A stretch of DNA of 50,108 bases from a virus. Made by a program: the position numbers and the translations under genes. The stretch is from positions 1 through 50,108 of IMG/VR virus record IMGVR_UViG_3300023223_000822. One strand, written 5' to 3'. This document shows positions 1,779 to 23,050 of this stretch, piece after piece. The notes beneath the pieces are model-generated. The model did not search any database. It was not told where the DNA came from and saw only the letters and a program-made list of their open reading frames with translations. The stretch's first letter is position 1; the number at the start of each line of letters is the position of its first letter.

Positions 1779-1927
1779 CCTGATAGGGTCGAACAGACGA
1801 TAAATCCGGCCGCGAAGCCGATCACTAAAGTTAGTGATGTGATCACCATGCTGGCTAGCTTGGCGCTTCTTGTCGCCTCCTCAACCAGATAGATCGGTTC
1901 TTGTTCACCCAAGTCAAGGTCGTTCAT
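1775..1927 (-). CDS. 50-aa single-pass membrane protein
   Basis: ATG 1927 has AAGGAGAG about 8 nt upstream, a good ribosome binding site lying inside the end of the preceding gene. N-terminus MNDLDLGEQEPIYLVEEAT, then a hydrophobic helix at about residues 27-46 and a short tail. Likely paralogue of the gene at 1641-1778. Function unknown. Confidence 0.7.
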   Translation of the reverse strand: MNDLDLGEQEPIYLVEEATRSAKLASMVITSLTLVIGFAAGFIVCSTLSG

Positions 1928-2159
1928 TCTTAGCTCTCCTTCCGGTCCTCTGTCTCAGTCGATGAAATTGGTACTCCATGTCTCTTAATACCCAAACGCC
2001 ACCCACTGCTTCAACAGTCTTAGGGCAAGACTCTTGGAACGGATAGAACATCTCACTTAAACCTCTCGCCAAACTCGGTGTTACCTCGTAGACATCCGCG
2101 GGAGGTTGGTATTCCTCGTCCACTACCTCTAGGAGGTCCCTCAAACTCACTTCATCCAT
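1914..2159 (-). CDS. 81-aa protein with N-terminal SLRDLLEV motif
   Basis: The start is either ATG 2159 or GTG 2150; GTG 2150 makes a GTGA overlap with the upstream stop and begins directly at VSLRDLLEVVDEE. This is one of the shared N-terminal motifs (SL-basic-x-LL-x-V/I-acidic) found in seven proteins here. The rest is mixed alpha/beta with a basic C-terminus (RLRQRTGRRAKNERP). No known domain. Confidence 0.7.
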   Translation of the reverse strand: MDEVSLRDLLEVVDEEYQPPADVYEVTPSLARGLSEMFYPFQESCPKTVEAVGGVWVLRDMEYQFHRLRQRTGRRAKNERP

Positions 2160-2500
2160 CTAGCGACTACTTTCGATACCCCGGTGATTACCATGTCCTT
2201 AAAACGGACCTTCAGGGTCGGCTCCTTCAGCTCCGAATGCACGTCACTAATCCTAGTTGTGTCCACTGGTAGGTCTGTGAGGTTTGTAAACACCAGGTCG
2301 TCTAGGCTCTCGATTGGGTGGTTTGCGACCATAAGCTCTATAGCCTCCGTAGCTACTAGTTCACCCACAGCGTTGATGTCGGCCACATCCGAAAAGATTA
2401 GTGTTGCCGTCCCTTCTTCCAACTTCGGTTCTTCCGGCAGGTCTGGTGGATCCTCGACGTGAAGAAGGTCAAATAAAGTCGTCCCACTCGTCTTCTTCAA
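2147..2500 (-). CDS. 117-aa protein, TTG start, N-terminal LFDLLHVEDPP motif
   Basis: The start codon is TTG at 2500 with GGAG spaced 7 nt upstream, inside the preceding gene. The TTG is supported because it places the shared motif TLFDLLHVEDPPDLPEEP at residues 8-25. The remainder has an acidic beta-rich look (TATLIFSDVADINAVGEL). Function unknown. It belongs with the other motif-carrying proteins at 1914, 2469, 3008, 6922, 7425 and 7865. Confidence 0.75.
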   Translation of the reverse strand: MKKTSGTTLFDLLHVEDPPDLPEEPKLEEGTATLIFSDVADINAVGELVATEAIELMVANHPIESLDDLVFTNLTDLPVDTTRISDVHSELKEPTLKVRFKDMVITGVSKVVARWMK

Positions 2501-2768
2501 AGTGATACTCCAAAAGTAGTTGTTTTCTTTCGTTGGGAACAGACTTCAATTTCCATTGTCCCCTTGGGGTAGGGATAATGTGCTCCTTCCCCGGTTCATG
2601 CTTCCCAAACATGGCTTCTCCATCCTCTAGAGAGAGGACACCAAGCTCCTCCAGAGCTATAACGTGCTCCTCCAGTACTACTTTAGACCAATCTATTCGT
2701 TCTAACTCAAACTTCGGTTCCTCAAAGTTAAGAAGGTCTTTTAGGGAATCAGGTGTCGGGGTCTTCAT
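2469..2768 (-). CDS. 99-aa protein with SLKDLLNFEEP motif; paralogue of 3008-3289
   Basis: ATG 2768 has GAGGGG 7 nt upstream and overlaps the upstream gene by 20 nt. SLKDLLNFEEP occupies residues 8-18. The segment LEELGVLSLEDGEAMFG matches FKESGFMTVAEAELIFG in the gene at 3008-3289, and both then carry a beta-rich PxxGxWKL/AGTHKWVF segment, so they are diverged paralogues. Function unknown. Confidence 0.75.
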   Translation of the reverse strand: MKTPTPDSLKDLLNFEEPKFELERIDWSKVVLEEHVIALEELGVLSLEDGEAMFGKHEPGKEHIIPTPRGQWKLKSVPNERKQLLLEYHFEEDEWDDFI

Positions 2769-2994
2769 TTTGCCCCTCAAAAAGCAGGGCCTTGATCTCT
2801 TCGAGTTTGTCCGGCGATAATCCTTGTTTCTTCACTATTTCAAAGATCGCGTGCTTCAATCTCTCAATGTCCCCTTGAGCCTGTCGAAGGTCATTAACAG
2901 CTCTAACCACATTCCTCCTTGAGCTAACTACCGGGAGTGCCAGAAGAACTAAAACCACCATGGTGGCCAACATCCAAAACTGTGGTTCAGTCAT
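2749..2994 (-). CDS. 81-aa membrane-anchored coiled-coil protein
   Basis: ATG 2994 is preceded by GAGGAGAAGGG. Residues 8-24 (MLATMVVLVLLALPVVS) form a membrane helix. Residues 28-72 are a charged helix with heptad spacing (VVRAVNDLRQAQGDIERLKH). The layout resembles small phage membrane proteins of the i-spanin type, but there is no outer-membrane partner here, so I leave the function open. Confidence 0.7.
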   Translation of the reverse strand: MTEPQFWMLATMVVLVLLALPVVSSRRNVVRAVNDLRQAQGDIERLKHAIFEIVKKQGLSPDKLEEIKALLFEGQNEDPDT

Positions 2995-3007
2995 CCCTTC
3001 TCCTCAA

Positions 3008-3289
3008 CTACCATGGCGGAAGCTTACCGTCATCTAGGTTATACCTTAGCTTGGATCGGTGCGTCCTCACGTAACCCGGCTCTACAGCTCCGTGTATGGT
3101 AAACACCCACTTGTGAGTTCCAGCCTCTTCAAACACAGGGACTCGGGCTCCTGCCACCCTTTCGAGTGGTCCAAAGATCAACTCCGCCTCAGCTACCGTC
3201 ATGAAACCTGATTCCTTGAATTCATCCCACTTCCGCTTCTTCCGCAAAAGGGGGTCTTCTATCTTCAGAAGATCTCCCAGGTTTTTCAT
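3008..3289 (-). CDS. 93-aa protein with MKNLGDLLKIEDP motif
   Basis: ATG 3289 has AAGGAG upstream and gives the N-terminus MKNLGDLLKIEDPLLRKK, another copy of the shared motif. A longer 116-aa reading frame exists, but both the ribosome binding site and the motif point to 3289. It is paralogous to 2469-2768 through the (L/F)xExGxxxxxxxExxFG segment. Function unknown. Confidence 0.75.
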   Translation of the reverse strand: MKNLGDLLKIEDPLLRKKRKWDEFKESGFMTVAEAELIFGPLERVAGARVPVFEEAGTHKWVFTIHGAVEPGYVRTHRSKLRYNLDDGKLPPW

Positions 3290-3296
3290 GGCTCCT

Positions 3297-3587
3297 TCAA
3301 TTCCTCCGCATCCTCGCAATATCGGTAGCGTCCTCTTTACCCAAAACCGGTATAGCATTCGACTTGTGCATCGTGGCGATACCCATTACCAAAGTTCCTG
3401 TGTAGGTCTGCTTCTGTCGTGGCGGAGATGTTGCTTGAGTAGTTGAAACTCTGCTTGGGTACTGGCTAGCATCCGGAGCCCAGTGAGGGGCCTTGTACGA
3501 AGGCATTGTTGGGCTCTCTGTCCCACCGAGACGATCGAACCTGGAGTGCAGAGCAGCGTAGTCAAAAGAAGTGTTCTTCCGAGTCAA
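3297..3587 (-). CDS. 96-aa conserved phage hypothetical (GIATMHKSN type), TTG start
   Basis: TTG 3587 has AAGGAG with a 7-nt spacer; the nearby ATG 3592 is out of frame and stops at once. Residues 62-96 (YTGTLVMGIATMHKSNAIPV, then EDATDIARMRRN) match a short C-terminal module I recall in small hypothetical proteins of many unrelated tailed phages. The N-terminal half is low in structure. Role unknown. Confidence 0.75.
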   Translation of the reverse strand: MTRKNTSFDYAALHSRFDRLGGTESPTMPSYKAPHWAPDASQYPSRVSTTQATSPPRQKQTYTGTLVMGIATMHKSNAIPVLGKEDATDIARMRRN

Positions 3588-3588
3588 G

Positions 3589-3759
3589 TCATGACTCCTT
3601 CAATTCTCTCCCCTTCAAAAGGATCCAGCGGACATAGGCGAAGGACGCGATCACAAGGAAGATAAGGGCTTCCAGCTGCCAGGGCATGTCTCTTGGGTAG
3701 AAGTCGTAGAGTACTGCTACTCCCAAGGTACAGCCAAGGTGGTGGGTAGAGGCTTTCAC
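3589..3759 (-). CDS. 56-aa single-pass membrane protein
   Basis: GTG 3759 overlaps the upstream TGA (GTGA). A hydrophobic segment at about residues 28-48 (QLEALIFLVIASFAYVRWILL) is flanked by charges; the tail is KGRELKES. Too short for standard gene calling but fully consistent with the coupled-gene pattern. Function unknown. Confidence 0.65.
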   Translation of the reverse strand: MKASTHHLGCTLGVAVLYDFYPRDMPWQLEALIFLVIASFAYVRWILLKGRELKES

Positions 3760-3959
3760 ACTTTTAGCTTAAGGGTTCCTTCCCTCCTGTTCTTCTTCCG
3801 AAGTTCTTTGGCAATTTGCATTTCAACTAACACTGCCCGTTCCTCCACTGTCAATAGGGAGCACTCTTTAATCGACTCTCTCAAGTGTATACTTGATTGA
3901 TCCAAGTACGCCTTACACTCCGGACATCTTTTGTTCTTCTGGAAGCGGAAATCACTCAT
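3756..3959 (-). CDS. 67-aa small protein with a CxxC pair and basic tail
   Basis: ATG 3959, with a weak AAAGAG upstream. CPEC at residues 12-15 and a lone later Cys suggest at most half a zinc site, or dimeric metal binding. The C-terminal 20 residues are strongly basic (AKELRKKNRREGTLKLKV). Function unknown. The about 90 nt upstream (3960-4053) carry only very short frames. Confidence 0.65.
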   Translation of the reverse strand: MSDFRFQKNKRCPECKAYLDQSSIHLRESIKECSLLTVEERAVLVEMQIAKELRKKNRREGTLKLKV

Positions 3960-4053
3960 TTTGCTCTTTACTTCGACGTTAAGATGAGCTGGCCGGATTG
4001 GTCACCGGTCCAGGCTAAGCCCTACGTACAGTGCTCCGACCAACCCAAATCGA

Positions 4054-5043
4054 TCATTCCAGTTCCTCTTCTGCTCTTTCTAAATACCCTTCTGCCCGTT
4101 CTTTGACTTCCTGCCTAGCGTTGGCCTCTTTGATCATCTGACCCGGATCCTGGACCTCCAGGGCGACCCCCTTCAGGGTACTCATAAACTGGACCATCTT
4201 CTGTTCTTCTTCCCTCTTTTCCTCGTGCCTCTCGGTGTCAATGAGTTCTTCGATTGGGGGAAGCTTGGGCCGCAGTACATTGAATTTAATAGAGCCGCTC
4301 TTGTCCTCCACTCCGCTTCCTGTTTCGAACTCAAGGACTCCGGCGGAAGGGCGTCGTCGTAGATCATTAGCGTGGGCGCCAGTCCTCGTAATTGACCCGT
4401 GGCTGACATAAATCTTACCAGCGATCTCTCGAATTCCTTGGTCTTCGTGGTGGTGCCCGATAACGTAGACGTCAGCTTCCCCAGAGCCGAGGACATCCGG
4501 TCCGTAGATTGGTTCACCAAAAAAGTCGCCACTCTGGCTTCCAAACCAGAAATGTCCCACTGCGACAAGAGTATCCCCATGAGCCTTAAGTGCTCTCGTT
4601 GGCTCGGCTTGTCCGTGATGAAAAGAAGCTCCCGCAATCCGGACTCTTCGTCCCTCTTTCTCGATGACATAGTCGTTATCGTCCAGTAGGTGGTACAGCC
4701 CCGCCTCGATCAGGATACCGAGTGGTTGTCCCTCCAGCCCCTTCTCTATAGATCCATACAATATATCGTGGTTCCCCGCTATCCCTACGTTTGCCATCCC
4801 TGCTTCTTGGATCTTCTTCATGATCCTCATAACCTGCCGGATGAAAGAAAGGGGGTTTCTTGAGGAACTCTTCAGGTGGAAAATATCTCCGCCCCAAACA
4901 AAAGCGTCGACCTCATTCTTTATAGCCCAGTCTATGACTTTGTTGACCGATCCCTGCAAAACTTCCCAGTAGTCCATCTTGTATGATGCCGGTGAATGAG
5001 CACACAAATGGGGGTCCAGAATCGTTACTATTTTTATTGTCAT
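4054..5043 (-). CDS. SbcD/Mre11-like metallophosphoesterase
   Basis: A 329-aa calcineurin-like phosphoesterase. Metal-site motifs appear in order: D10-P-H12, GGDIFH (D53, H56), GNHD (residues 90-93), a His after GASFHHG, and IGHHHED near residue 197. This is the Mre11/SbcD nuclease layout (Mn-dependent DNA end processing), and the C-terminal about 70 residues form a charged helix. No SbcC/Rad50 partner is visible in the window; a stand-alone phage nuclease or a phosphodiesterase are both possible. The stop is followed at once by small genes. Confidence 0.85.
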   Translation of the reverse strand: MTIKIVTILDPHLCAHSPASYKMDYWEVLQGSVNKVIDWAIKNEVDAFVWGGDIFHLKSSSRNPLSFIRQVMRIMKKIQEAGMANVGIAGNHDILYGSIEKGLEGQPLGILIEAGLYHLLDDNDYVIEKEGRRVRIAGASFHHGQAEPTRALKAHGDTLVAVGHFWFGSQSGDFFGEPIYGPDVLGSGEADVYVIGHHHEDQGIREIAGKIYVSHGSITRTGAHANDLRRRPSAGVLEFETGSGVEDKSGSIKFNVLRPKLPPIEELIDTERHEEKREEEQKMVQFMSTLKGVALEVQDPGQMIKEANARQEVKERAEGYLERAEEELE

Positions 5044-5274
5044 TTACGTTTGCTTTGGACTTAGTCCCATATACGTATTTCGATAAATGTCTTTGATCTT
5101 CTCTAACTGGGCATCTGAAAACTTATCTTGATCGGCTACACTAAATAGGAACTCCACTTCCCACTCTGTGAACTCAGCTATCTCCACATCATCCAGGAGT
5201 TCTGCCAGCTTCTCCTTGGCATCCTCCTGCTCTCCAACAAAGTCACTCTCTCCGAACCCTACTTCGTCACCCAT
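5044..5274 (-). CDS. 76-aa acidic phage hypothetical
   Basis: It abuts the phosphoesterase start with no gap. It is very acidic, with a helical C-terminal module (FTEWEVEFLFSVADQDKFSD then QLEKIKDIY), a pattern typical of short phage hypotheticals. Upstream AAAGAAG is a weak ribosome binding site. KLAELLDDVEIAEF vaguely recalls the shared LL motif but lacks the Pro and is not N-terminal. Function unknown. Confidence 0.7.
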   Translation of the reverse strand: MGDEVGFGESDFVGEQEDAKEKLAELLDDVEIAEFTEWEVEFLFSVADQDKFSDAQLEKIKDIYRNTYMGLSPKQT

Positions 5275-5611
5275 ACTTCTTTAGGTCCCTTTGTACAATC
5301 TCCTCCGCCCGTTGCTCGATACCCCAAATGTCCTCGCCTCGTGCTATTTTCATAACCGAAGAGCGCCCTAGGAAGTCTATGACGACTGCCTGACCGCTCT
5401 GGTGAACCTCAATGAATTGGATGGTTGAAGGTGTACCCTTCTTGTCGGTACGAGTGTACCACATCGATTGGTCATGAGTACCATAAGCGAACTCTCCAAT
5501 AAAGTCGAGTTCAAGCTCTGGCTCCTCCTTTCTACGCCTCCACCTTCGAATTGTCACCAATTCTACCAGACTGGGTAGCAGTCGCTGCAGTAAGTGAGAC
5601 AAACGGCCCAT
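5267..5611 (-). CDS. 114-aa hypothetical overlapping its neighbour by 80 nt
   Basis: ATG 5611 has GGAG with a 7-nt spacer, so I keep it although the gene then overlaps 5532-5915 by 80 nt. GTG 5557 (VTIRRWRRRKEEPELELDF) is the alternative. An N-terminal leucine-rich amphipathic stretch and an Arg cluster are followed by a small beta domain (FIEVHQSGQAVVIDFLGRSS). Function unknown. Confidence 0.6.
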   Translation of the reverse strand: MGRLSHLLQRLLPSLVELVTIRRWRRRKEEPELELDFIGEFAYGTHDQSMWYTRTDKKGTPSTIQFIEVHQSGQAVVIDFLGRSSVMKIARGEDIWGIEQRAEEIVQRDLKKYG

Positions 5612-5915
5612 TCTTTCTCTCCGTTATCGCGTACACTCCTTGTTGCCCTGCTATCCGCTCGATACTCTTCTTCCGAGTCATGCGGTGTAGGGTAGCCACC
5701 ATTTGTTGTCGGGTCACTTCAAGTTCCGTCTTTCTCCAGTACCTGACCAGAAGTTGGTCTAAAGATGCTGCTCCTCCGTTCTCTGTCAGGACTTCTAGTA
5801 TCACTTGGTGTCTCTTCGCTCCGGCGAACTTCAGCTCCTGGAGTACAGAAAGGGGGAGATCTTCTAACTCCTCATCCTCCAGGCTAAAGCTTATGCCCCT
5901 GATATCAACCATCAC
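5532..5915 (-). CDS. Winged-helix DNA-binding protein
   Basis: 127 aa; GTG 5915 overlaps the upstream TGA, and ATG 5912 follows immediately. Residues 36-98 (HQVILEVLTENGGAASLDQL, then YWRKTELEVTRQQMVATLHR and QGVYAI) form a compact winged helix with a terminal wing strand. Such domains are common in phage regulators. The acidic N-terminus and Ser/Thr-rich tail look flexible. Likely a transcription regulator; target unknown. Confidence 0.7.
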   Translation of the reverse strand: MMVDIRGISFSLEDEELEDLPLSVLQELKFAGAKRHQVILEVLTENGGAASLDQLLVRYWRKTELEVTRQQMVATLHRMTRKKSIERIAGQQGVYAITERKNGPFVSLTAATATQSGRIGDNSKVEA

Positions 5916-6142
5916 ATGTGAGGGATCGAGGCCCTTAATGCTGCGTCCTTGCCTTCCAGCAGCTTCCGTAGTGCAACCGTCCTTTCCGCATTGCGCGGTA
6001 CAAACTCCACAATAAACTCCGCCAGCTCTGCGAACCTCATAGAGATAACCTGCAGTTCAAGCGGGAGATGTTCGTATTCGAACCACTGCAGCATTCTCTC
6101 CGGCTGAACCAGATCGGCAGGATCTGTGTCTTTGTTACTCAT
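5912..6142 (-). CDS. Acb2/Tad1-type helical-hairpin protein (candidate cyclic-nucleotide sponge)
   Basis: 76 aa, joined by a GTGA overlap downstream and an ATGA overlap upstream. The core LPLELQVISMRFAELAEFIV, then VPRNAERTVALRKLLEGKDA, is two helices joined at P-x-x-x-ERT. I recognise this as the small family related to the helical hairpin of Acb2 and Tad1. Those proteins sequester cyclic di-/trinucleotides or gcADPR and so blunt CBASS and Thoeris defence. Family recall is from memory and unverified; anti-defence activity of this branch is inference. Confidence 0.6.
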   Translation of the reverse strand: MSNKDTDPADLVQPERMLQWFEYEHLPLELQVISMRFAELAEFIVEFVPRNAERTVALRKLLEGKDAALRASIPHM

Positions 6143-6486
6143 GAACCTTCACCTATTCTCGGTGTACCCAATGGCCCCTCGTTCGGAGACGTGTCATCCA
6201 ACAAAGCGTAGGATTGCCTCTGCAAGGCTTCTGCCTGCCTCATAAGTCCAATGATCTGCTGGTTATTGTTATATACCGTCTTGGCGATCAGCCGAGGATC
6301 TCGTGCGATCTTCAAGCTCTTGTGCCACACTTCATCCTGAAGCTTTGAAAGCAGTTCCTCCAGCTTCCAACCGTTCACGTTAGTTGGACCCATCAGAATA
6401 GGGGTATTCTTCTCTTGCTCAGCCCCTAGCTTGAGGGCTGCTCCTACTCGGGCTGCTTCTTTCGGTGTCAATCTATCTTCACTCAT
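6139..6486 (-). CDS. 115-aa hypothetical
   Basis: ATG 6486 has AGAGGA with about 7 nt spacing and beats the longer ATG 6522. It is mostly helical (KLEELLSKLQDEVWHKSLKI and QQIIGLMRQAEALQRQSYAL), with an unstructured Gly/Pro C-terminus. It could be a coiled-coil scaffold; no family recognised. The stop overlaps the next start (ATGA). Confidence 0.65.
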   Translation of the reverse strand: MSEDRLTPKEAARVGAALKLGAEQEKNTPILMGPTNVNGWKLEELLSKLQDEVWHKSLKIARDPRLIAKTVYNNNQQIIGLMRQAEALQRQSYALLDDTSPNEGPLGTPRIGEGS

Positions 6487-6490
6487 AGCT

Positions 6491-6925
6491 TCATCCTCTT
6501 GCGTGCAGTGTCCAGTCATCATGATCGTAAACCCGAAACGCTACCGAAAAGCGCAGTGACGACGGCACAGCCTTAACCTCATGCTTAACACCTGGGTTTA
6601 GTAGGACCGCAGAGTCAGCCTCAACGATATGCGCCTTGTCGTCTATCCACACAGTACCACGCTCGTGGTTACCGAAGGTGACGTAATAGAGCAGGGTCCA
6701 CTCAGGGTGTTCGTGTTCTTTCAACGACTCACCTTGTTTCAGTACCACCGCTACTTCCGGTCTACCCCGGTGAGTCCAGGGCACTGGAATAAGACCCCGC
6801 ATCTGGCTCTTAAAGACGTCAAAGCTTGAATCAAGCAGGCCCGGTACGGCCAATCGCTTACGCGCAGCATGGTACCAGGTGTCAAGCAGAATATGTCTGA
6901 ACCCCAAATTACGAAAGTATTTCAC
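6491..6925 (-). CDS. Cupin-fold protein
   Basis: 144 aa from GTG 6925, which overlaps the upstream TGA and follows GGAAGGACAA. Cupin motif 1 is seen as GESLKEHEHPEWTLLYYV (two His and a Glu as metal ligands) and motif 2 as LLNPGVKHEV, with a beta-strand-rich middle. Likely a metal-binding small beta barrel. Whether it is an enzyme (for example an epimerase or dioxygenase) or a sensor cannot be told. An unusual companion for small early phage genes. Confidence 0.65.
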   Translation of the reverse strand: MKYFRNLGFRHILLDTWYHAARKRLAVPGLLDSSFDVFKSQMRGLIPVPWTHRGRPEVAVVLKQGESLKEHEHPEWTLLYYVTFGNHERGTVWIDDKAHIVEADSAVLLNPGVKHEVKAVPSSLRFSVAFRVYDHDDWTLHARG

Positions 6926-7449
6926 TTGTCCTTCCACCACGACTTCACCATGTCTCCCATATTCAGATTAACCTTTTTCGTGTCTGAGATCACCTTACCT
7001 GGTCCTGCCATTGTCGGTACGTTCGCTGGAGTAGGAGGGGCTAGAGCCTGCGTTATCACTGTTGAGCCATCCTGTTGATCTACATCCCAGTAAACGGTCC
7101 CCGCTGGAATGGCCGATAGTTGTCGGGTCTCTTCGTAAAGGGGTGTATTCTGCTTCCTCACTCTCAACGTGATCTTTTCTTTCCCCAACATTAGGCCTAG
7201 CATTATGCTTGCGTCCCCAGCGGCTTGCCCTACAGCTAGTCGCTCTCCCTTCTCATTCGAGACCAGCCACTTGCTCCCGTCTTCAATCCCTCTAAGTACT
7301 AGAGTAGTGTCTTTCCGCCAAGCTCCCTTTTCGAACTTTACATTCGGTTCAGCTTCTGGTAAAGGTGCTTCCGCTGTAATATCCGGCTCGGGGATTGGCT
7401 CGGGCTCCATATTAAGGAGACTTTTTAGGGAGTCTTTATCTTCAGGCAA
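6922..7449 (-). CDS. 175-aa protein with SLKSLLNMEPEP motif, TTG start
   Basis: TTG 7449 has GGAGG with an 8-nt spacer, and the resulting N-terminus MPEDKDSLKSLLNMEPEP carries the shared motif. A Pro/Glu-rich linker (residues 14-36) is followed by a beta-rich domain (about 40-130) and a Pro-rich then Lys-rich tail ending in WWKDK. Function unknown. The start overlaps the preceding gene by 25 nt. Confidence 0.75.
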   Translation of the reverse strand: MPEDKDSLKSLLNMEPEPIPEPDITAEAPLPEAEPNVKFEKGAWRKDTTLVLRGIEDGSKWLVSNEKGERLAVGQAAGDASIMLGLMLGKEKITLRVRKQNTPLYEETRQLSAIPAGTVYWDVDQQDGSTVITQALAPPTPANVPTMAGPGKVISDTKKVNLNMGDMVKSWWKDK

Positions 7450-7868
7450 AAACTGGCCCTCCGAAATTGGCCACGTCTCTCGACATTGAACACCACTGTC
7501 ACCAACGAATTCCCGTCAGCCTCCCAGGCTACTGACTCTATCCTGGCACAAAACGTAAACTCGTTTGGCGGATCGAACATATTTGGTTTCAGTACTATCC
7601 TTAGAAGGGGTGTTTGAACATCTCCAATCTTCTTGTTGCAAAATGCGCCGATTCTACCCAAAGGGTCGTCGTAAACCACTTCTACAGTCTCTGCTTTAGT
7701 ACGTTCTATTTGGTAATCTACGTAGGATCTCGCTGCGCGTGTTGTGCTGTAGCCATCCACCTTCAGGTCGTTAAAAGGATGGGTTGTGATCGCGGACAGA
7801 TCCGGTAAATCAACCCATTCCGGTAGTGGTGGATCCTCTATCTCAAGTAGTTCCTTAAGCCCTTTCAC
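7425..7868 (-). CDS. 147-aa protein with MKGLKELLEIEDPPLPE motif
   Basis: GTG 7868 overlaps the upstream TGA (GTGA). The cleanest copy of the shared motif is at residues 2-17 (KGLKELLEIEDPPLPE). The rest looks like a beta sandwich (LLRIVLKPNMFDPPNEFTF then SLVTVVFNVERRGQFRRASF), with no motif I recognise. Could be a minor virion or regulatory protein. Confidence 0.75.
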   Translation of the reverse strand: MKGLKELLEIEDPPLPEWVDLPDLSAITTHPFNDLKVDGYSTTRAARSYVDYQIERTKAETVEVVYDDPLGRIGAFCNKKIGDVQTPLLRIVLKPNMFDPPNEFTFCARIESVAWEADGNSLVTVVFNVERRGQFRRASFCLKIKTP

Positions 7869-8365
7869 GGTAAATCTTCTACCTTAAACGGAGAGTTCAC
7901 GCTGATGAACTCCGCCTCGACTCTCAAAAGGTCTTGCGGACTAGCGTCGACCCTCAAGTCGGTACACACCGCCTCCAAAACCACCATCCCTTGACTCATA
8001 GTTCTTAGTGACAGCTTAATATTCTTCCGCGCGTTACACACCGTCTGTATCGTTTCCAGCTCCCGCTTATTCTTGGGTAAATAGGTGACAGAAATGTCCA
8101 CCTGTTGCTGACCCAAATTGACCCCGACTGGACTGAGTTGTCCGATTCCCATTTGGACACGAGCGTTGTTCGTCAACACCATACTCCAATCGGCAACGTC
8201 CACGGCTGATAGTGGAAACATTCCTGCTAGGCCTGTAATCCCCTTCAATCCCGGGTCGTTTGGATCGGGTTCGAATTGAATTACAGCTGGAGGGTCAATC
8301 TGGAGTAGGCTCCGTAGCTCCTCAGCGTCTACGTCTCTCCACTTTACTAGCTTCGTCTGAACCAT
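7865..8365 (-). CDS. 166-aa protein with ELRSLLQIDPPAV motif
   Basis: ATG 8365 overlaps the SurE stop by one base (TAATG). The motif EELRSLLQIDPPAV is at residues 15-28, after a short charged lead. Residues 40-160 are beta-rich and contain VDISVTYLPKNKRELETIQT and LKVEDLP-like edges, which recall phage virion domains, but I cannot name the family. Confidence 0.7.
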   Translation of the reverse strand: MVQTKLVKWRDVDAEELRSLLQIDPPAVIQFEPDPNDPGLKGITGLAGMFPLSAVDVADWSMVLTNNARVQMGIGQLSPVGVNLGQQQVDISVTYLPKNKRELETIQTVCNARKNIKLSLRTMSQGMVVLEAVCTDLRVDASPQDLLRVEAEFISVNSPFKVEDLP

Positions 8366-9081
8366 TAGAATCTGACGGTGGGATTCACTCTCAACTGCAA
8401 CTCTGAAATCGTCACAAAACCTCTTTTCAAGAGCGTTATGTCTGACCTCTCGTCCTTGGCACGGGGAAGTTGTTCGATCGATGGAGTTCTCCAGTAGGAG
8501 TAGTGCGAGACCGGGGCCTCTTCATAACCCTTCGGTTCTCCCTCTGGAAAGTTGACGTTCCAGCACTCTCCTGGTTGAAAACTAGTCGATCGAACGAAGT
8601 CTTCGAGGTACTTGACCGACCCCTCGAAGTGTTTCCGGTCTTCTTTCTCGTCTCCTGGCTCCGTGGTAGGCATTTCCTGTGCGAAAGCGAAGGCTCCGAC
8701 ATTGTACTGTGTTGACGCGGTCATGGCCTGGGCTACTGTTCCTGAGTGATACACATCAGCCCCTACGTTGGCACCAAGATTCACACCACACAGTACTCCA
8801 TCAAACACTGTGCCTGGGGCTAGCCGATCCCCGTTCTGTAGGCAGAAGTGAATGATATCCGCGGGTCTGGCCCTCATCACCCAGAGTCGTTCGTCTCCTT
8901 GCTTCTCTGGCTCGAAGTCGTCTAACGGCTTCATTGACACTGCCGATCCGTGTCCTGACATTGGACGGTGGCTCACTACTGTGAAAAGGTTAGCGTTCTT
9001 GTAGCACTTCCTGGCAACTTCTCTCAAGATAGTCAAGCCAAAAGACTCAATACCATCGTCGTTCGTTATCAGTATGTTCAT
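8365..9081 (-). CDS. surE: SurE-type survival nucleotidase
   Basis: 238 aa. It opens with MNILITNDDGI (D8, D9), then SHRPMSGHGSAVSM (S42) and CGVNLGANVGADVYHSGTVA (N101): the four metal ligands and signature of SurE 5'/3'-nucleotidases, which dephosphorylate nucleoside monophosphates. Length is near the bacterial norm. It lies between RecA and a motif-carrying small gene, and the stop overlaps the next start. Phage-borne SurE is uncommon; a role in host RNA/DNA nucleotide recycling is inference. Confidence 0.92.
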   Translation of the reverse strand: MNILITNDDGIESFGLTILREVARKCYKNANLFTVVSHRPMSGHGSAVSMKPLDDFEPEKQGDERLWVMRARPADIIHFCLQNGDRLAPGTVFDGVLCGVNLGANVGADVYHSGTVAQAMTASTQYNVGAFAFAQEMPTTEPGDEKEDRKHFEGSVKYLEDFVRSTSFQPGECWNVNFPEGEPKGYEEAPVSHYSYWRTPSIEQLPRAKDERSDITLLKRGFVTISELQLRVNPTVRF

Positions 9082-10268: not shown

Positions 10269-10822
10269 ACTATCTTCCACGGTATGAGGGCTGATTCCCT
10301 CGAAGGGAGGGGATAAGACCAAGACCCCTCCATCACATCCAAAGCCAACTGCCCAACCATAAAAGCATCCACCTTGTGTTGCGATATCCTTCCATTAGCC
10401 CACGGAGTCTTCTCATACTTCTCCTTAAAACTCTGGACTATCGTCGATGGCTTCGCTGTATCGAACCCGTGCCTCTTCTTCATGTAGGACTTCAGCTGAA
10501 CTGGCAGTGGCATCACAAACACAGGGTCCACTTGAAACTTCTCTACGTGGAATCTCCCTATTGTATCTAATACAACCATTTGTATGTAGAACATCAAAGA
10601 TGAAGTCTGGCCCCCAACCGAAAGTTGCTTTTCGATACCGTAGAGGGTACCAGGTTCCGCGTGGTTCGCCAGGAAGTTGTCCAGCTCTGCCTCGATCTGT
10701 CGACCTGAGGATAGGACGTCCCCCTTAGGCTGGATCTCGTGAAAGACCGGGGTCGATCCATAACAAAGCTCTGCTAGTCCAGTATGCCTTTGCGACGGGT
10801 CGATCCCAATCACTCGTTGCAT
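10253..10822 (-). CDS. ruvC: RuvC-like Holliday junction resolvase
   Basis: 189 aa. RNase H-fold signatures: RVIGIDPSQRHTGLAEL (D8), YGIEKQLSVGGQ (E64) and a C-terminal HKVDAF (H149, D152). These match the four acidic/His positions of RuvC. It should cut four-way junctions or branched DNA before packaging. No RuvA or RuvB is nearby, as usual for phage resolvases. It overlaps recA by 16 nt and shares one base with the stop of the next gene upstream. Confidence 0.88.
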   Translation of the reverse strand: MQRVIGIDPSQRHTGLAELCYGSTPVFHEIQPKGDVLSSGRQIEAELDNFLANHAEPGTLYGIEKQLSVGGQTSSLMFYIQMVVLDTIGRFHVEKFQVDPVFVMPLPVQLKSYMKKRHGFDTAKPSTIVQSFKEKYEKTPWANGRISQHKVDAFMVGQLALDVMEGSWSYPLPSRESALIPWKIVCQQP

Positions 10823-11511
10823 TACTCGTCGTCCATGATATCCGAAAGATCGAGATCACCAGCATTGTCCGTACTACCAGTCACCCCAGGTGTACTTACG
10901 CCCAGTAGAGTCTTGATCTCCTCGGAATCCATCTTCCGTCCCATCGCGAGTCCGAGCTTTGGCTGAGCGGCCCTTTCTCTCTCCTTCAGCTTCTTGAACC
11001 AATTCTCTTTCAACTTCCAATGAGCTTTAGGAGTAGGCGAGAAAGTCATCCTCTGGTACTGCTCTTCCGAGCATTGGATCATCAGGTCCGATTGCGGCTC
11101 TGTAAACCCGCTGTCCAACAAAGGAAACTGCTTGTGCATGTTCGAGAGCTCTTCGTACCTCGTCTCCGACATTCTCCAAATCTTGATCTTCCCTCTACAC
11201 CTAGTATCGTCCATCATCTCACCTGTCTCATCGGTCAAATAATGAAAAAGGATAAGTCCAAACCGCTGATCCGGCTCTCCAATAATTTCTCTGGTAAGTT
11301 CCAGTGTCTCGGGATCGGTCGGTGCTCGAAAGACAGCTTTCTGTGCACCTTTCTCGTAAAAGTACGTCCAAACTCGTACCAACGACGACGAGATAATTGC
11401 TACTCGATCCGTTACTCCCTTTCTGCCTTTGTAACGATCGAATTGTGACGTCTCTATCCTCTTGTCTCCAAAGCCAACAGGAAGTTCCGCCATCTTGGGG
11501 TCTTCAGGCAT
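10822..11511 (-). CDS. Candidate phage single-stranded DNA-binding protein
   Basis: 229 aa, ATG 11511 with GGAG and a 6-nt spacer. It has a compact N-terminal domain (KRIETSQFDRYKGRKGVTDR, then FHYLTDETGEM) and ends in an acidic tail (DLDLSDIMDDE), the layout of ssDNA-binding proteins whose tail recruits partners. It sits directly upstream of ruvC and recA. Near the C-terminus SEEIKTLLGV loosely recalls the shared LL motif. The fold is not proven; the call rests on tail, length and context. Confidence 0.45.
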   Translation of the reverse strand: MPEDPKMAELPVGFGDKRIETSQFDRYKGRKGVTDRVAIISSSLVRVWTYFYEKGAQKAVFRAPTDPETLELTREIIGEPDQRFGLILFHYLTDETGEMMDDTRCRGKIKIWRMSETRYEELSNMHKQFPLLDSGFTEPQSDLMIQCSEEQYQRMTFSPTPKAHWKLKENWFKKLKERERAAQPKLGLAMGRKMDSEEIKTLLGVSTPGVTGSTDNAGDLDLSDIMDDE

Positions 11512-11627: not shown

Positions 11628-12113
11628 CTAGTCCAGATCCAAGTCGTCATCCGCTTCAGCGGTCGCCGGTTCGGCCTTCGCTGCGGCCTCTTTCTTGTCG
11701 GCTGTTTTCGCAGGAGCCTTGGTCTCTGGGGGTTTCCGAGAACCGCGAGCTTTGAGGGCATCTTCCAGAACACCGCCATTACCGTTAAGGGCCTTGACAA
11801 CGACGCCTTCTTCGTAGCGCAACTTGGTCCGAATTCCGAACTTGGTTGTCGCACCACTGGGCAGTCGCCGTTCGCCGGCTTGGTATTGGCGCTGATGCAG
11901 CGCGCCGAACCCGCCATTGAATCGAAGGCTTCCGTTGCGAGCGGCTGCGGCAAAGACTTCATTGACCACGAGATCAAAGATCTCACGACCACCGGTCTTT
12001 CCGATGCGCTTACCCGTTTTCTCTTGTACGAGTTTGCCAATCTGGATGTAGATCGCCTCCTTCGCGGAAGGCTCTCGAACCTCGGTGGCTTCCTTGGTTT
12101 CTGCTTCACTCAT
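11628..12113 (-). CDS. HU-like DNA-bending protein
   Basis: 161 aa, ATG 12113 with AGAGGA upstream. Residues 13-112 follow the HU/IHF fold: the helix KEAIYIQIGKLVQEKTGKRI, then LRFNGGFGALHQRQYQAGER and a beta arm ending LRYEEGVVVKALNG. The C-terminus is Ala/Lys/Pro-rich and ends ADDDLDLD. The GC-richer base use of this gene stands out from its neighbours, suggesting separate acquisition. A 188-aa frame over the same DNA is a shadow. Expected role: DNA compaction or architecture during replication and recombination. Confidence 0.75.
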   Translation of the reverse strand: MSEAETKEATEVREPSAKEAIYIQIGKLVQEKTGKRIGKTGGREIFDLVVNEVFAAAARNGSLRFNGGFGALHQRQYQAGERRLPSGATTKFGIRTKLRYEEGVVVKALNGNGGVLEDALKARGSRKPPETKAPAKTADKKEAAAKAEPATAEADDDLDLD

Positions 12114-12137: not shown

Positions 12138-12689
12138 TTAATCGTCCAAATCAATACCCTGGTTACTTGCCGGGGGAAACGGTCGGGGATTAGCTCCTAC
12201 CCCAACTTTCGCTTCAAAGATCCGGGAATGGAGACGAAGGTCGGAATCCAGTCGTTTCATTGTTCCCTGTCGCTCGTTAACCGCATCTTTAACCTCTGAT
12301 ACAATGAAGGATAGTTCCATCCATTTGTCCAGCTCTCCCTTTCGCTCCAAAAGCTCGTTCTCTAGCCAAGGAGTCTTGATTGCCCTAGGCTGATCCGCAT
12401 ACTCTTCCGAGAGCTTAAGTTCCGTAGTGTAGGCCCGTAGCACTGATTCAGCTCTCTTCGAGGTCGTCTTCACGAAGATGTTGATCTTGGTCAGCTTCAA
12501 CTGAATATCGGAGAGCCTCTCCTGGAACACAGAACACTTCGCCAGCTTATTGGACAGGAAAGCTAGGTCATAATCCGTATCGTCCTCCGACAACCCAAGC
12601 TCCATGCTACCCGCTTGTTCCAGCAGATCCATGACGTCCAAGTTCATTCGAGCTATTCGCTCACTTACGGTTGAGTCGACCATATCCAT
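12138..12689 (-). CDS. 183-aa helical protein, possible UvsY-like recombination mediator
   Basis: Almost entirely helical. The C-terminal half (LSEEYADQP, then ERKGELDKWMELSFIVSEVK, then EAK) has the same order and spacing of features as T4 UvsY, which loads the recombinase on ssDNA. The last residues, GIDLDD, are acidic. Context is supportive: it lies in the HU/SSB-candidate/RuvC/RecA block. No firm homology can be claimed from eye alone. It overlaps the upstream gene by 29 nt. Confidence 0.4.
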   Translation of the reverse strand: MDMVDSTVSERIARMNLDVMDLLEQAGSMELGLSEDDTDYDLAFLSNKLAKCSVFQERLSDIQLKLTKINIFVKTTSKRAESVLRAYTTELKLSEEYADQPRAIKTPWLENELLERKGELDKWMELSFIVSEVKDAVNERQGTMKRLDSDLRLHSRIFEAKVGVGANPRPFPPASNQGIDLDD

Positions 12690-19037: not shown

Positions 19038-19750
19038 CTTCTTTTACTCATAAGATAAAGAACCAGCTTAGTTCTAGCCGGGTTGTCCTCTCGTTTCATA
19101 AATTCCAGTTCTTCCGGAAGGACCTTGTCCTTAATTGCTGGTGTCAAAGCCAGTCCGTTCACAATCTCGTTAGAGAACAAGGAAGTCAGGCCACGAGATC
19201 CTCCTTTAAGCTCGCGACGAATCTCGATCACCATGTCTTTCATCACCAAAGTGCGGATCGATCCGTCTAGAGTCCCATCGTATAGGTTCAAACGGTCCAC
19301 GGTCTTCGCATCGTAGTTAAGTCTTTGAAGATTTCCTAGTACTGCCTTCCTCGACAGGAATGGCAGTCGAACCACGTTTGACCTAGACATCAGAGTGTGT
19401 AGTTTCTCCGGTATGTCTTGAGCTTGAAAGATAAACCTGGTCCATCGCGCTTCTTCGGCAGCCTTCAACAAGGGTCCGGCTGAGTCGGTCGGTAACTTCT
19501 CCATTCCGGCCACAAAGACGTGACTCAATTGGGATCCTGCCCTGGGAGCTTTTCTTGCCTCCGCTTCAATCTCGCGGGCCTTCGCTTTCGTGACATTTTC
19601 TGCCTGGTAGGCGGTGTAGTCCTCGGGCGATGCTATTTTCTTCAGCGTCCTAGGCAGTAACATTCCCAAACCCAGGTCATTCGCACAAATCACAAAGAAA
19701 TTCGTTCGGTCCGGATAATTTACAATCCGTAGGAACTCTTGGATCCTCAA
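19034..19750 (-). CDS. Clamp-loader delta'-like AAA protein
   Basis: 238 aa, TTG start overlapping the upstream TGA. HVFVAGMEKLPTDSAGPLLK, then AAEEARWTRFIFQAQ and LMSRSNVVRLPF, reproduces the Walker B / sensor 1 / SRx arginine-finger run of DNA polymerase III delta'. The N-terminus is shortened and has no P-loop, so it would be an inactive AAA stator like delta'. It pairs with the delta-like gene downstream. Confidence 0.7.
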   Translation of the reverse strand: MRIQEFLRIVNYPDRTNFFVICANDLGLGMLLPRTLKKIASPEDYTAYQAENVTKAKAREIEAEARKAPRAGSQLSHVFVAGMEKLPTDSAGPLLKAAEEARWTRFIFQAQDIPEKLHTLMSRSNVVRLPFLSRKAVLGNLQRLNYDAKTVDRLNLYDGTLDGSIRTLVMKDMVIEIRRELKGGSRGLTSLFSNEIVNGLALTPAIKDKVLPEELEFMKREDNPARTKLVLYLMSKRS

Positions 19751-20052
19751 TCAATATCTCCGAGATCGACGTCTTCGGCCTTGACCTTCAGCTGGCCTTT
19801 ATCTCGCAACGCGGTTGTCCTTGCATCCTCAATAAGAGGACCCATAAGCAGTTGATCGGTCAACATTCCGATCCTGTCTGAGTCCGAATATTCTTGGTCC
19901 TCATAAGCGGCGGTCCGCAAGATCAGCTCTTCCAGGTATTTCGCCACCAAGGTATCACCGTGAGTCTGTGCAACAGCCCGGCATCTTTGCCGTAGATTAC
20001 ACATTGACCGGCACGTGACCTCTTTGTCATTGTAGAATCCGAAACAGTTCAT
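19747..20052 (-). CDS. 101-aa Cys-rich small protein
   Basis: ATG 20052 overlaps the VWA stop (ATGA), and the stop overlaps the next TTG. Four cysteines at the N-terminus (C3, C14, C18, C24) could hold zinc or an Fe-S cluster. The C-terminus is acidic (AEDVDLGDID), like several recombination proteins here. Function unknown; its place between the VWA and clamp-loader genes is tight. Confidence 0.65.
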   Translation of the reverse strand: MNCFGFYNDKEVTCRSMCNLRQRCRAVAQTHGDTLVAKYLEELILRTAAYEDQEYSDSDRIGMLTDQLLMGPLIEDARTTALRDKGQLKVKAEDVDLGDID

Positions 20053-21872
20053 GCCATTATTCCCTTCAAGATGGTAATAATCTTTGTCGGTAGGTCTTGT
20101 ATAGTAGATACCGAGACATGTTTGTCAGTGCAATTCTCCAGAGCGGAGCTTCCACTGTGTCCCACATAAAGACCCATCGTTTCGATTCTCAACTTCTTCG
20201 ATTTGACGTAAAGGCGATCCATCAACAAATAGTCACTGTGACTCCTGTCACCCACAGCAAATTGAGGAGACCCATCTGATATCAGCCAAAGAACTTTCCG
20301 CAATTCTTTTCTGATTAAAAGTTGCTCCATCCCATAACCATAAGCATCTCCAAGAGGAGTGTACCCTCCAGTTTTTAAGGATCCTAGCTTATCCTTGACT
20401 CGATCATAGGGCTCATCGAAGTCCTTAAAAGTAGTCATTACCATGGGTGATAGTCGGCCGACCCCTTTTTCGTTACCGTCATTATAATGACTGTAAATCT
20501 CCGTCGTCTTGAAACCGCTTATCTTCAGCTTCACTTCCCTTACGTTGGCCACCGCCTCCGCTACCAAAATAGCCGTTTGAGCAGTCAACTCTTGATTCAT
20601 GGACGATGATAAATCCACCACCAGATGGAGAGCAGTATTAATTCGCTTGGCCTGTCTCCTTTGCTTCGACAGCCGATTCGAAAAAGACAGGGAGTACAGC
20701 GCATCTTCGTCTAAATCCCCTTCTTCCAGACCTCGGTGCCATCCTCTCTTAGCCCTTGACTGAAGGTAGATATTCAACATCTTCTTCAACGCCGTAGCGT
20801 AAACTGAAATGGACGACCTGATACGAAGGAATTCACCAGTTTTTGGCTTTGCCTTCACTCCAATCTTGTCTTGGTTTAAACATCCTGGAGGTAAGACCAC
20901 CTGTCCTGACTTTCTCCTATGTCGACGCCTTCCTTTTCTGGTCCCTCCTCCACCCTTAGCCGGCTTACCTTTTAAATGCTCCGGCCAATCTCCCTCCAGC
21001 TTTTGATTCTCTTCGATCATGCCTTCGATCATTTCTTGAAAAGCACCCTGACGTTCGAATTCCTTGAGTAGCTTAGCTGCCGCTTCTTCGAGACCTTCCT
21101 TCCACTCCTTTTTCCTCTCGTCATCCGACTTTCCTCCGTCGGAACCTCCAGCTTCAGGCGGGCCTTGCTTTGAATCACCCTCACTAATTGGGGGAGGAGA
21201 TCCAAAACTGATCGAAGGAATACCGCCATCCTTTCCATCGCCAGGCTCATTATCCTCACCGGTTGGGGGAGGAGCATAGTCGACCAAAATTTGTGCAACG
21301 AATTCTGCAATTTTAATTGAATCTTTGGTGGACCTCACATTTTGCAAATCTTTCATCGCGGCCGCTACTTCAGGATAGTCTTCTTTCAAGTTCCCCGGTA
21401 TGACGTTAGTGTCAACCTTGCGGTACTCCAGATAGGCCTCTTTATAGACCTCTCGTAGAGCCTTGCTATATGGATCATCCGGAAACTGTTCTTCCGCGGA
21501 CTTCTCATCCACATAGACCGCCAAAGCATCTAGATAGGCCCGTGACCCCGGATAGACGCCGATTTGCGCGTTCTCCACGAAGATGTCCTCGAAGATCATT
21601 CGCAGGAATGAAGCGGTCTTGGAAGACGGTTTCACTTTCCAATCCGAAAAGTCGGTGTGGCGGCAATGACCTGCCTCGTGATCCAAATAACCGCCGTAAA
21701 CCTTCGCTTCCCAATCGGACATCACAGTCCCTGCTGGTAGCGAGGGAACTACAATGTGTTTACCATCCGTATAGGCTGTGTCTCCTCCAAAGGAGACAGT
21801 GATACCGTCCTTTCCTGACACAATCTGGGCCAGACGACTAGCATTAGCCTGAAATGATTCTTTCCTTCTCAC
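20049..21872 (-). CDS. CobT-like VWA-domain protein
   Basis: 607 aa, GTG start overlapping the AAA+ stop (GTGA). The VWA MIDAS motif is VDLSSSM (D420, S422, S424), with later GGYTPLGDA and ISDGSP. An N-terminal HEAGH (H65-H69) and downstream FEDIFVE look like a zinc-metallopeptidase or CobT-type site. The middle (about 200-330) is low-complexity and acidic, then very basic (RKGRRRHRRK). With the AAA+ partner it fits the MoxR/VWA or CobS-CobT pairing, which remodels or inserts metal into client proteins; the client is unknown. Confidence 0.82.
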   Translation of the reverse strand: MRRKESFQANASRLAQIVSGKDGITVSFGGDTAYTDGKHIVVPSLPAGTVMSDWEAKVYGGYLDHEAGHCRHTDFSDWKVKPSSKTASFLRMIFEDIFVENAQIGVYPGSRAYLDALAVYVDEKSAEEQFPDDPYSKALREVYKEAYLEYRKVDTNVIPGNLKEDYPEVAAAMKDLQNVRSTKDSIKIAEFVAQILVDYAPPPTGEDNEPGDGKDGGIPSISFGSPPPISEGDSKQGPPEAGGSDGGKSDDERKKEWKEGLEEAAAKLLKEFERQGAFQEMIEGMIEENQKLEGDWPEHLKGKPAKGGGGTRKGRRRHRRKSGQVVLPPGCLNQDKIGVKAKPKTGEFLRIRSSISVYATALKKMLNIYLQSRAKRGWHRGLEEGDLDEDALYSLSFSNRLSKQRRQAKRINTALHLVVDLSSSMNQELTAQTAILVAEAVANVREVKLKISGFKTTEIYSHYNDGNEKGVGRLSPMVMTTFKDFDEPYDRVKDKLGSLKTGGYTPLGDAYGYGMEQLLIRKELRKVLWLISDGSPQFAVGDRSHSDYLLMDRLYVKSKKLRIETMGLYVGHSGSSALENCTDKHVSVSTIQDLPTKIITILKGIMA

Positions 21873-23050
21873 GACTTGAACCCGACCGGAATTGGCTTGC
21901 CGGTTACTCTCGTAATTACGTCGTGAACCAGCTGTTCGTCATCTTCATCCACCCAGTTGAGCAGACTCAGTCGCATCGATTCCGACTCTCCGACTACCGC
22001 ACTCAACTCGAAGTACTCAATAAGTCTTCGAGTCGACATCGTTACGGCCAACAAACCCCGTTGAAAAGAACTCCGAACCTCGGTCGCAATAGCCACAACC
22101 TCGTTGATCTGATCCAAAGGAACACCCGGAAACCGGCGGTGCAACATCCCTGTTTCTTCCGACTTCGACAAGTATTCCATCTTCATCTTCAAACCAAACC
22201 GGTCGAGAAAGGCGCTATTCAGTACTTCCGTTCCGGTGTACACACCACGGGTATCTCCTTTACCACCAGTGTTCGCCGTTGCGAAGATCATGAACCCGTC
22301 TTCCGCGACAACCCTTTCACCAGTCTCCTCAATATATAGGGACCGGCCTGCTTCCGCAACTGAACTCATGGTCGCGATAACGTGGGGCGGGGCGTAATCA
22401 ACCTCATCCAAAAGAAGGGGGATCCCCGCTCTCATACAAAAGGGCATCGTTCCTTCGTCAAAATAGGTTCCCTTCTGGGGGTCTGCCTTCATTCGACCTC
22501 GGAAGGTCGCCGGTGTTACCTCACCGTTCAAGTTCAGTCGAACGATGGGGCGTTTCATCTCTGCAAAGATCTGCAATAACAGTTGCGTCTTACCGCAACC
22601 AGTGGGACCTTCCATGAAGGTGTTCTTTCTCAAAGCTAAACCAGCGAGAAGAGCCTTCGTCCGATCCATATCGAACACGAAAAAATCATCCCTCTCGGGG
22701 ATATGAGCAGCCACTCCCGGGTACGTCGAATCGGCCGCAAAATGCTTGCTCGTCTTATCGATCAGATCCGCGATAATGTAATCGTCAGCATCCTCTCCCA
22801 AAAAGGGAGCCAGAAACTTCTCAAGACCCGTACTCTTCGGGAGGGTAATTGGAGTTCTTTCGAACCGAGCCTGAATATCAGCTACTATCGGCGACTTCAA
22901 AACCGCATCAGGATGCCGCTTTAGGTATGCCGTTGGCGATATCTGATGGGCCCTGTCCAGATGCTCGGCCAAGGTGTAATCCTTGTGCCCACATAGGACG
23001 CACTTCACTTTTGTCTTTTCGATTTCTTCTCGGAACTGCTTTACGTCCAT
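21869..23050 (-). CDS. CobS/MoxR-like AAA+ ATPase with N-terminal zinc finger
   Basis: 393 aa. Residues 17-35 form a C2H2 finger (C17, C20, H30, H35), followed by a MucR-like ISPTAYLKRHPDA. The AAA+ module has Walker A GPTGCGKTQ (148-156), Walker B LLLDEVDYA (D215, E216), sensor IFATANTGG and an Arg finger near LDRFG. It is coupled by GTGA to the VWA gene. The leader AAAGACGAGGCAAG resembles the promoter-proximal leaders elsewhere, but no clear promoter is seen. Confidence 0.85.
   Translation of the reverse strand: MDVKQFREEIEKTKVKCVLCGHKDYTLAEHLDRAHQISPTAYLKRHPDAVLKSPIVADIQARFERTPITLPKSTGLEKFLAPFLGEDADDYIIADLIDKTSKHFAADSTYPGVAAHIPERDDFFVFDMDRTKALLAGLALRKNTFMEGPTGCGKTQLLLQIFAEMKRPIVRLNLNGEVTPATFRGRMKADPQKGTYFDEGTMPFCMRAGIPLLLDEVDYAPPHVIATMSSVAEAGRSLYIEETGERVVAEDGFMIFATANTGGKGDTRGVYTGTEVLNSAFLDRFGLKMKMEYLSKSEETGMLHRRFPGVPLDQINEVVAIATEVRSSFQRGLLAVTMSTRRLIEYFELSAVVGESESMRLSLLNWVDEDDEQLVHDVITRVTGKPIPVGFKS

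Follow-up and report, generated by a model that had tools for sequence, protein, structure and literature searches.

Seven dissimilar proteins of a tailed phage share an N-terminal peptide that may act as a docking tag

Seven genes that open with a common peptide

The window analyzed here is a complete IMG/VR record (IMGVR_UViG_3300023223_000822; 50,108 bases) from a tailed phage, and seven of its small genes, designated A to G, encode proteins with a shared 12-residue peptide (hereafter the tag) near the N terminus. Every evident gene was on the minus strand of the window. Tail genes occupy the right part (33-50 kb) and small genes form a block on the left, with the genes for DNA polymerase, helicases, ligase, and RecA between them. 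The right end of the record cuts into the tail tube gene, so the head genes apparently lie outside it. The tagged genes form two clusters, G-F-E and D plus C-B-A, in which the ends of genes overlap.

In the G-F-E cluster, gene G (7865-8365, minus strand, as are all window features below) encodes 166 residues from an ATG start, and its tag, ELRSLLQIDPPA (8285-8320), begins at residue 16; the body of this protein is weakly like a phage tail tube protein. Gene F (7425-7868; 147 residues) uses a GTG start within a 4-base overlap with the stop codon of G and has its tag, GLKELLEIEDPP (7827-7862), from residue 3, and gene E (6922-7449; 175 residues) uses a TTG start with GGAGG upstream and carries SLKSLLNMEPEP (7396-7431) from residue 7. 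Of the second cluster, gene D (3008-3289; 93 residues) starts with ATG at 3289, with GGAG upstream, and has NLGDLLKIEDPL (3248-3283) from residue 3, and gene C (2469-2768; 99 residues) starts with ATG at 2768 and has SLKDLLNFEEPK (2712-2747) from residue 8. Gene B (2147-2500; 117 residues) has a TTG start with GGAG upstream, its first codons overprint the end of C, and its tag is TLFDLLHVEDPP (2444-2479), from residue 8; gene A (1914-2159; 81 residues) has an ATG start, overlaps the end of B by 13 bases, and carries SLRDLLEVVDEE (2112-2147) from residue 5. An initial annotation of this DNA had listed a peptide at each of these genes and had held that the TTG and GTG starts were supported by ribosome binding sites or overlaps. 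All seven peptides were found, on the minus strand between 1914 and 8365, and the start codons of B, E, and F have exactly this support.

The motif [STNGE]-L-x-[DES]-L-L-x-[IVFM]-[EDV]-[DEP]-P/E was present in all seven proteins within residues 3-27, with the copies sharing 4-7 of the 12 tag residues. The tag is necessarily N-terminal in A and F, because their reading frames are closed 6 and 9 codons before it; for B and E, the opening residues of the tag are encoded where the gene overlaps the end of its upstream neighbor. The tag of most copies adjoins a proline-rich linker and does not lie inside a domain.

Recurrence of the tag and the level of its conservation

The nine-column core L..LL.[IVLMF][EDV][DEP] occurred in 7 of the 67 N termini of the window, whereas 2000 shuffled sets had 0.035 on average and never more than 2. 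A free search of all three-residue spaced patterns, which corrects for the motif having been picked, returned L..LL as the top pattern, in 13 N termini, a count that never rose above 10 in 200 shuffled sets. When profiles were built leaving out one copy at a time, each copy was recovered by the other six ahead of all 60 untagged proteins, and none of 156,780 windows from shuffled proteomes reached any leave-one-out score. With the profile of all seven, run over the 67 proteins, the lowest copy scored 25.2 bits and the best untagged protein 11.0; the record thus holds exactly seven copies (D, C, B, A and G, F, E), all separated from the untagged proteins. Among 118 other phage loci (1.73 Mb; 9,996 stop-to-stop frames), six windows scored at least 13.5 (best 17.7, with the top two internal), and none of the loci had two copies or a comparable N-terminal copy. 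A chance resemblance picked by eye is scarcely credible: L-rich helices are common and a four-residue pattern test (5 N termini, compared with a largest value of 5 in 60 shuffled sets) is not decisive alone, but the leave-one-out profile, the shuffled proteomes, and the 1.73 Mb of other phage sequence all contradict it.

Agreement between copies was ∼60% at the first two codon positions and ∼30% at the third, where the tags are near random, and identical residues shared a codon 36 times, compared with 32.2 ± 5.1 predicted from the codon usage of the genome (P 0.25). Because the third positions are near random and codons are shared as codon usage predicts, selection acts on the tag peptide and not on the DNA. 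The same codon test led to the rejection of a repeat or RNA signal as explanation, and makes it very unlikely that the tags arose from repeated DNA, from an RNA element, or from 5' ends that were recently duplicated. It could still be supposed that the 5' coding sequence is kept as nucleic acid (a translation enhancer, regulatory RNA, or DNA site) with the peptide as a by-product, and the constant proximity of the tag to the start codon and the several weak starts (TTG, GTG) would suit that account; the scant agreement of third positions beyond chance and the ordinary codon sharing make it highly improbable.

Protein scans were run over IMG/VR (queries: G, the DNA polymerase, the SNF2-type helicase, and RecA) and over GTDB genomes (query: RecA), and they yielded one true relative (IMGVR_UViG_3300031231_000005; RecA 65% and helicase 50% identical). 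Its genes after recA differ from those of the window, with no tag and no homologue of any body up to the end of the contig 2 kb past recA. Three DNA pattern scans for tag variants in 2.9 million IMG/VR viral contigs, which covered a few spellings of the motif so that divergent versions could exist elsewhere, gave unrelated matches only, at 12 distinct loci. The matches examined were mostly inside larger unrelated proteins or in apparently non-coding frames, two loci (L126 and L127) had no frame above the cut-off, and no second convincing tag was seen. On these searches the tag appears to be an orphan so far.

Bodies of the tagged proteins and neighboring genes

After removal of the tag, none of the 21 pairs of bodies was significantly similar by Smith-Waterman comparison with shuffles (smallest p 0.07), BLASTP, or phmmer, in agreement with the earlier description of the bodies as unlike one another. 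Searches of Pfam, PHROGs, NCBIfam, and PADLOC returned no significant hit for any of the seven proteins. Matches were likewise absent when B, D, E, F, and G were compared by tblastn with 50,697 phage records and when the PDB was searched with the sequence of G. When a tail tube profile built from this phage and nine others was applied to the 67 window proteins, G scored 8.3 bits and F was fourth with 2.9 bits. Only the tube itself ranked above G in the window, and among 5,947 frames from other loci only a true tube protein did so; G and, marginally, F alone stand out. These scores are suggestive only, and G and F may both be tail-tube-like beta folds. A single-sequence AlphaFold2 model of G had a predicted local distance difference test (pLDDT) score of 36, too poor to decide the fold. 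The corresponding model of D (pLDDT 63) displayed the tag as a separate short helix, where the pLDDT was a poor 46, and Foldseek with this model found no match better than E 0.4.

The untagged gene between D and C (2749-2994) encodes a protein with one apparent membrane segment and a charged helix, as read from the sequence. Directly after gene E lies the gene for a cupin-domain protein (6491-6940; PF07883, E 4e-7), and at 8365-9081 is a gene for a SurE-family phosphatase (Pfam E 8.5e-29), which is unusual for a phage. The latter protein starts MNILITNDDG and has the DD metal site, which was seemingly lost from the copy of the relative (L006, 11188-11889), where the start reads MNILLTSAEG. The gene at 5912-6142 encodes a 76-residue protein that matches phrog_1761 (E 2e-20) and has no match in Pfam; its FEYEHLP..ERTVALRKLLEGKDAALRA pattern is reminiscent of Acb2-type anti-CBASS sponges, for which it is a candidate only, and its similarity to T4 Vs.4 (which we take to be Acb2) was weak (E 0.026 in a single comparison). 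The product of the adjacent gene (6139-6522) has an uncharacterized counterpart, ∼55% identical, in Vibrio and Oceanospirillum phages (also VHML orf14; phrog_26726), although the present phage is otherwise without close relatives. Further along, at 20049-23050, a CobS-like AAA+ ATPase (phrog_249, E 2e-53) is paired with a phrog_1576 protein; this CobS/CobT-like pair is also present in the relative.

The tag as a probable docking peptide and its possible destinations

Because it is conserved at the protein level, is N-terminal, and precedes bodies without detectable common ancestry, the peptide is best read as a docking or targeting tag; we assign a probability of roughly 75% to its docking with a common partner. 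The tag would form a short helix, L-x-x-L-L-x-hydrophobic, opened by S, T, N, G, or E and closed by an acidic, proline-rich cap, and would serve as an address ahead of working domains that are unrelated to one another, with one partner recognizing the hydrophobic face of the helix. The initial annotation had proposed a docking tag for one hub protein. The conservation as peptide, the N-terminal position, the unlike bodies, and a T4-like degree of sharing speak for the tag, whereas the single hub is hypothetical, and that the tags all dock with one partner is an inference wherever it appears here. Among the explanations we rank targeting to the virion first, a hub inside the cell second, and old common descent third.

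Virion targeting comes first on the precedent of the N-terminal leaders of T4, P1 DarB, and the giant phages, and in our assessment it is the best single mechanism, held tentatively and at somewhat under even odds. The likeliest partner would be the scaffold or the inner surface of the prohead, and quickly changing accessory proteins would be loaded into the virion to be delivered along with its DNA, as are the T4 internal proteins and P1 DarB. We count for this reading that the relative encodes a head maturation protease (phrog_1028, E 4e-11) and that both tagged clusters lie among the small genes at one end of the genome, the region in which one would look for accessory genes. The resemblance of G, and more weakly of F, to the tail tube protein of the same phage would also fit virion proteins.

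The nearest parallel is found in T4, in the capsid targeting sequence (CTS) carried by IPI, IPII, IPIII, and Alt, which like the tag is a short N-terminal peptide on otherwise unlike small proteins of one phage; both are proposed to address cargo to one structure. In a control comparison, IPI, IPII, and IPIII shared 5, 5, and 11 of their first 12 residues and 1-2 of the next 12, so that the 4-7 of 12 found here compare with 5-11 of 12 in T4. The sequences are unrelated (MKTYQEFIAEA in T4 and SLKDLLNIEDPP here): by eye, the T4 leaders lack the L-x-x-L-L core and the tags lack K-T-[YF]-x-E-F. T4 tags begin at residue 1 and are removed by the prohead protease, whereas those described here start at residues 3-16 with no constant cleavage site seen, and IPII and IPIII share codons, as recent copies, whereas the present tags do not. 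The seven proteins display the formal hallmark of a T4-type CTS, a shared leader with unlike bodies; by sequence the tag is not homologous to that of T4, and it is not filed as a member of that class. In phage P1, an N-terminal signal of at most 30 residues of DarB suffices for capsid targeting, and the cargo is a set of accessory proteins (PMC9024508). The P1 Dar proteins have no consensus among their packaging signals, whereas the consensus here is plain. Giant phages use longer propeptides (PMC5694885). When we searched the literature for unlike phage proteins with an N-terminal motif in common, the results pointed again to T4, P1, and SPN3US.

Several observations weigh against a virion destination. 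No head gene, scaffold, or protease was recognized in the record, so no partner can be named. There is no constant protease site, the residue after the hydrophobic position being E in five copies, D in G, and V in A, and the tag is displaced from residue 1, as far as residue 16 in G. Five of the seven bodies are acidic, unlike those of the T4 internal proteins. The relative has no tagged genes in its 2 kb beyond recA.

The strongest rival, which we consider possible at about one step less likelihood than the virion, is that the tag docks to a hub inside the infected cell (a host protein, the replisome, a phage-made compartment, or a membrane hub) and that the seven proteins are takeover factors of the early or middle phase, all directed to one host or phage target. 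The tagged genes are downstream of recA and surE in the same orientation, their neighbors are small membrane-type proteins and the cupin protein and not structural genes, LxxLL-type helices commonly serve in protein docking, and the acidity of the five bodies would fit as well. Furthermore, hub-and-tag wiring is plausible because SSB-like, HU-like, and neighboring proteins of this phage bear a terminal tag of their own, an acidic tip at the C terminus. Set against this, no partner is visible, no annotated replication protein of the record bears the N-terminal tag, and the tag is not the bacterial sliding-clamp motif (QxxL[FL] type), which was rejected because the residue before the first L is S, T, S, N, S, G, and E in the seven copies and never Q. 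In a specific form of this proposal, one phage- or host-encoded hub would recruit at least seven orphan proteins of different fold by the N-terminal LxxLL-acidic-proline tag, and effector genes would join the program by gaining a 12-residue leader. Such a non-capsid address system is on balance unlikely and would be new. The initial annotation had suggested a possible new cargo-address system; such a system is possible yet unproven, and T4 already offers a known case of phage proteins with a common N-terminal address peptide.

The second terminal tag is an acidic [ILV]D[LI][DSG] tip that ends the SSB-like and HU-like proteins and two neighbors (10822-11511, 11628-12113, 12138-12689, and 19747-20052), the ends reading ..DLDLSDIMDDE, ..DDDLDLD, ..GIDLDD, and ..VDLGDID. 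The relative keeps the tip in three homologues (L006, 7492-8058, 8084-8602, and 8681-9388; ends ..SSIDID, ..GGDLELD, and ..GDVDLSDVIEEA), and these ends recall the C-terminal docking tips of SSB.

Improbable, but third in rank, is that the seven proteins are one old, very diverged family (or two or three families) expanded in place, of which the tag is the best-kept part of an ancestral N-terminal domain. The tandem arrangement in two clusters and the shared weak likeness of G and F to the tail tube family would agree with such descent, as would a 20-residue stretch of C and D that is alike by eye (LEELGVLSLEDGEAMFG / FKESGFMTVAEAELIFG). That suspected homology was not significant (p 0.15; phmmer E 0.12-0.17), however, nor was any other pair; protein lengths (81-175 residues) and body isoelectric points (4.4-9.5) differ widely, and the tag is the sole aligned part, mostly beside a proline-rich linker and not within a domain.

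Encapsulation peptides of bacterial microcompartments and encapsulins likewise place a short amphipathic helix and a linker ahead of unrelated cargo enzymes. Their sequences differ from the tags, and no shell protein was recognized among the proteins scanned, which cover part of the frames of a partial record.

A docking tag of this kind offers a handle on orphan phage proteins that goes beyond homology searching, as it marks them as acting in the same place. Should the tag be a virion address, the injection of accessory proteins practiced by T4 and P1 would extend to a tailed phage unrelated to them; if it leads to an intracellular hub, it would represent a new kind of wiring for takeover proteins. 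Under either reading, the tag peptide itself makes the destination directly testable.

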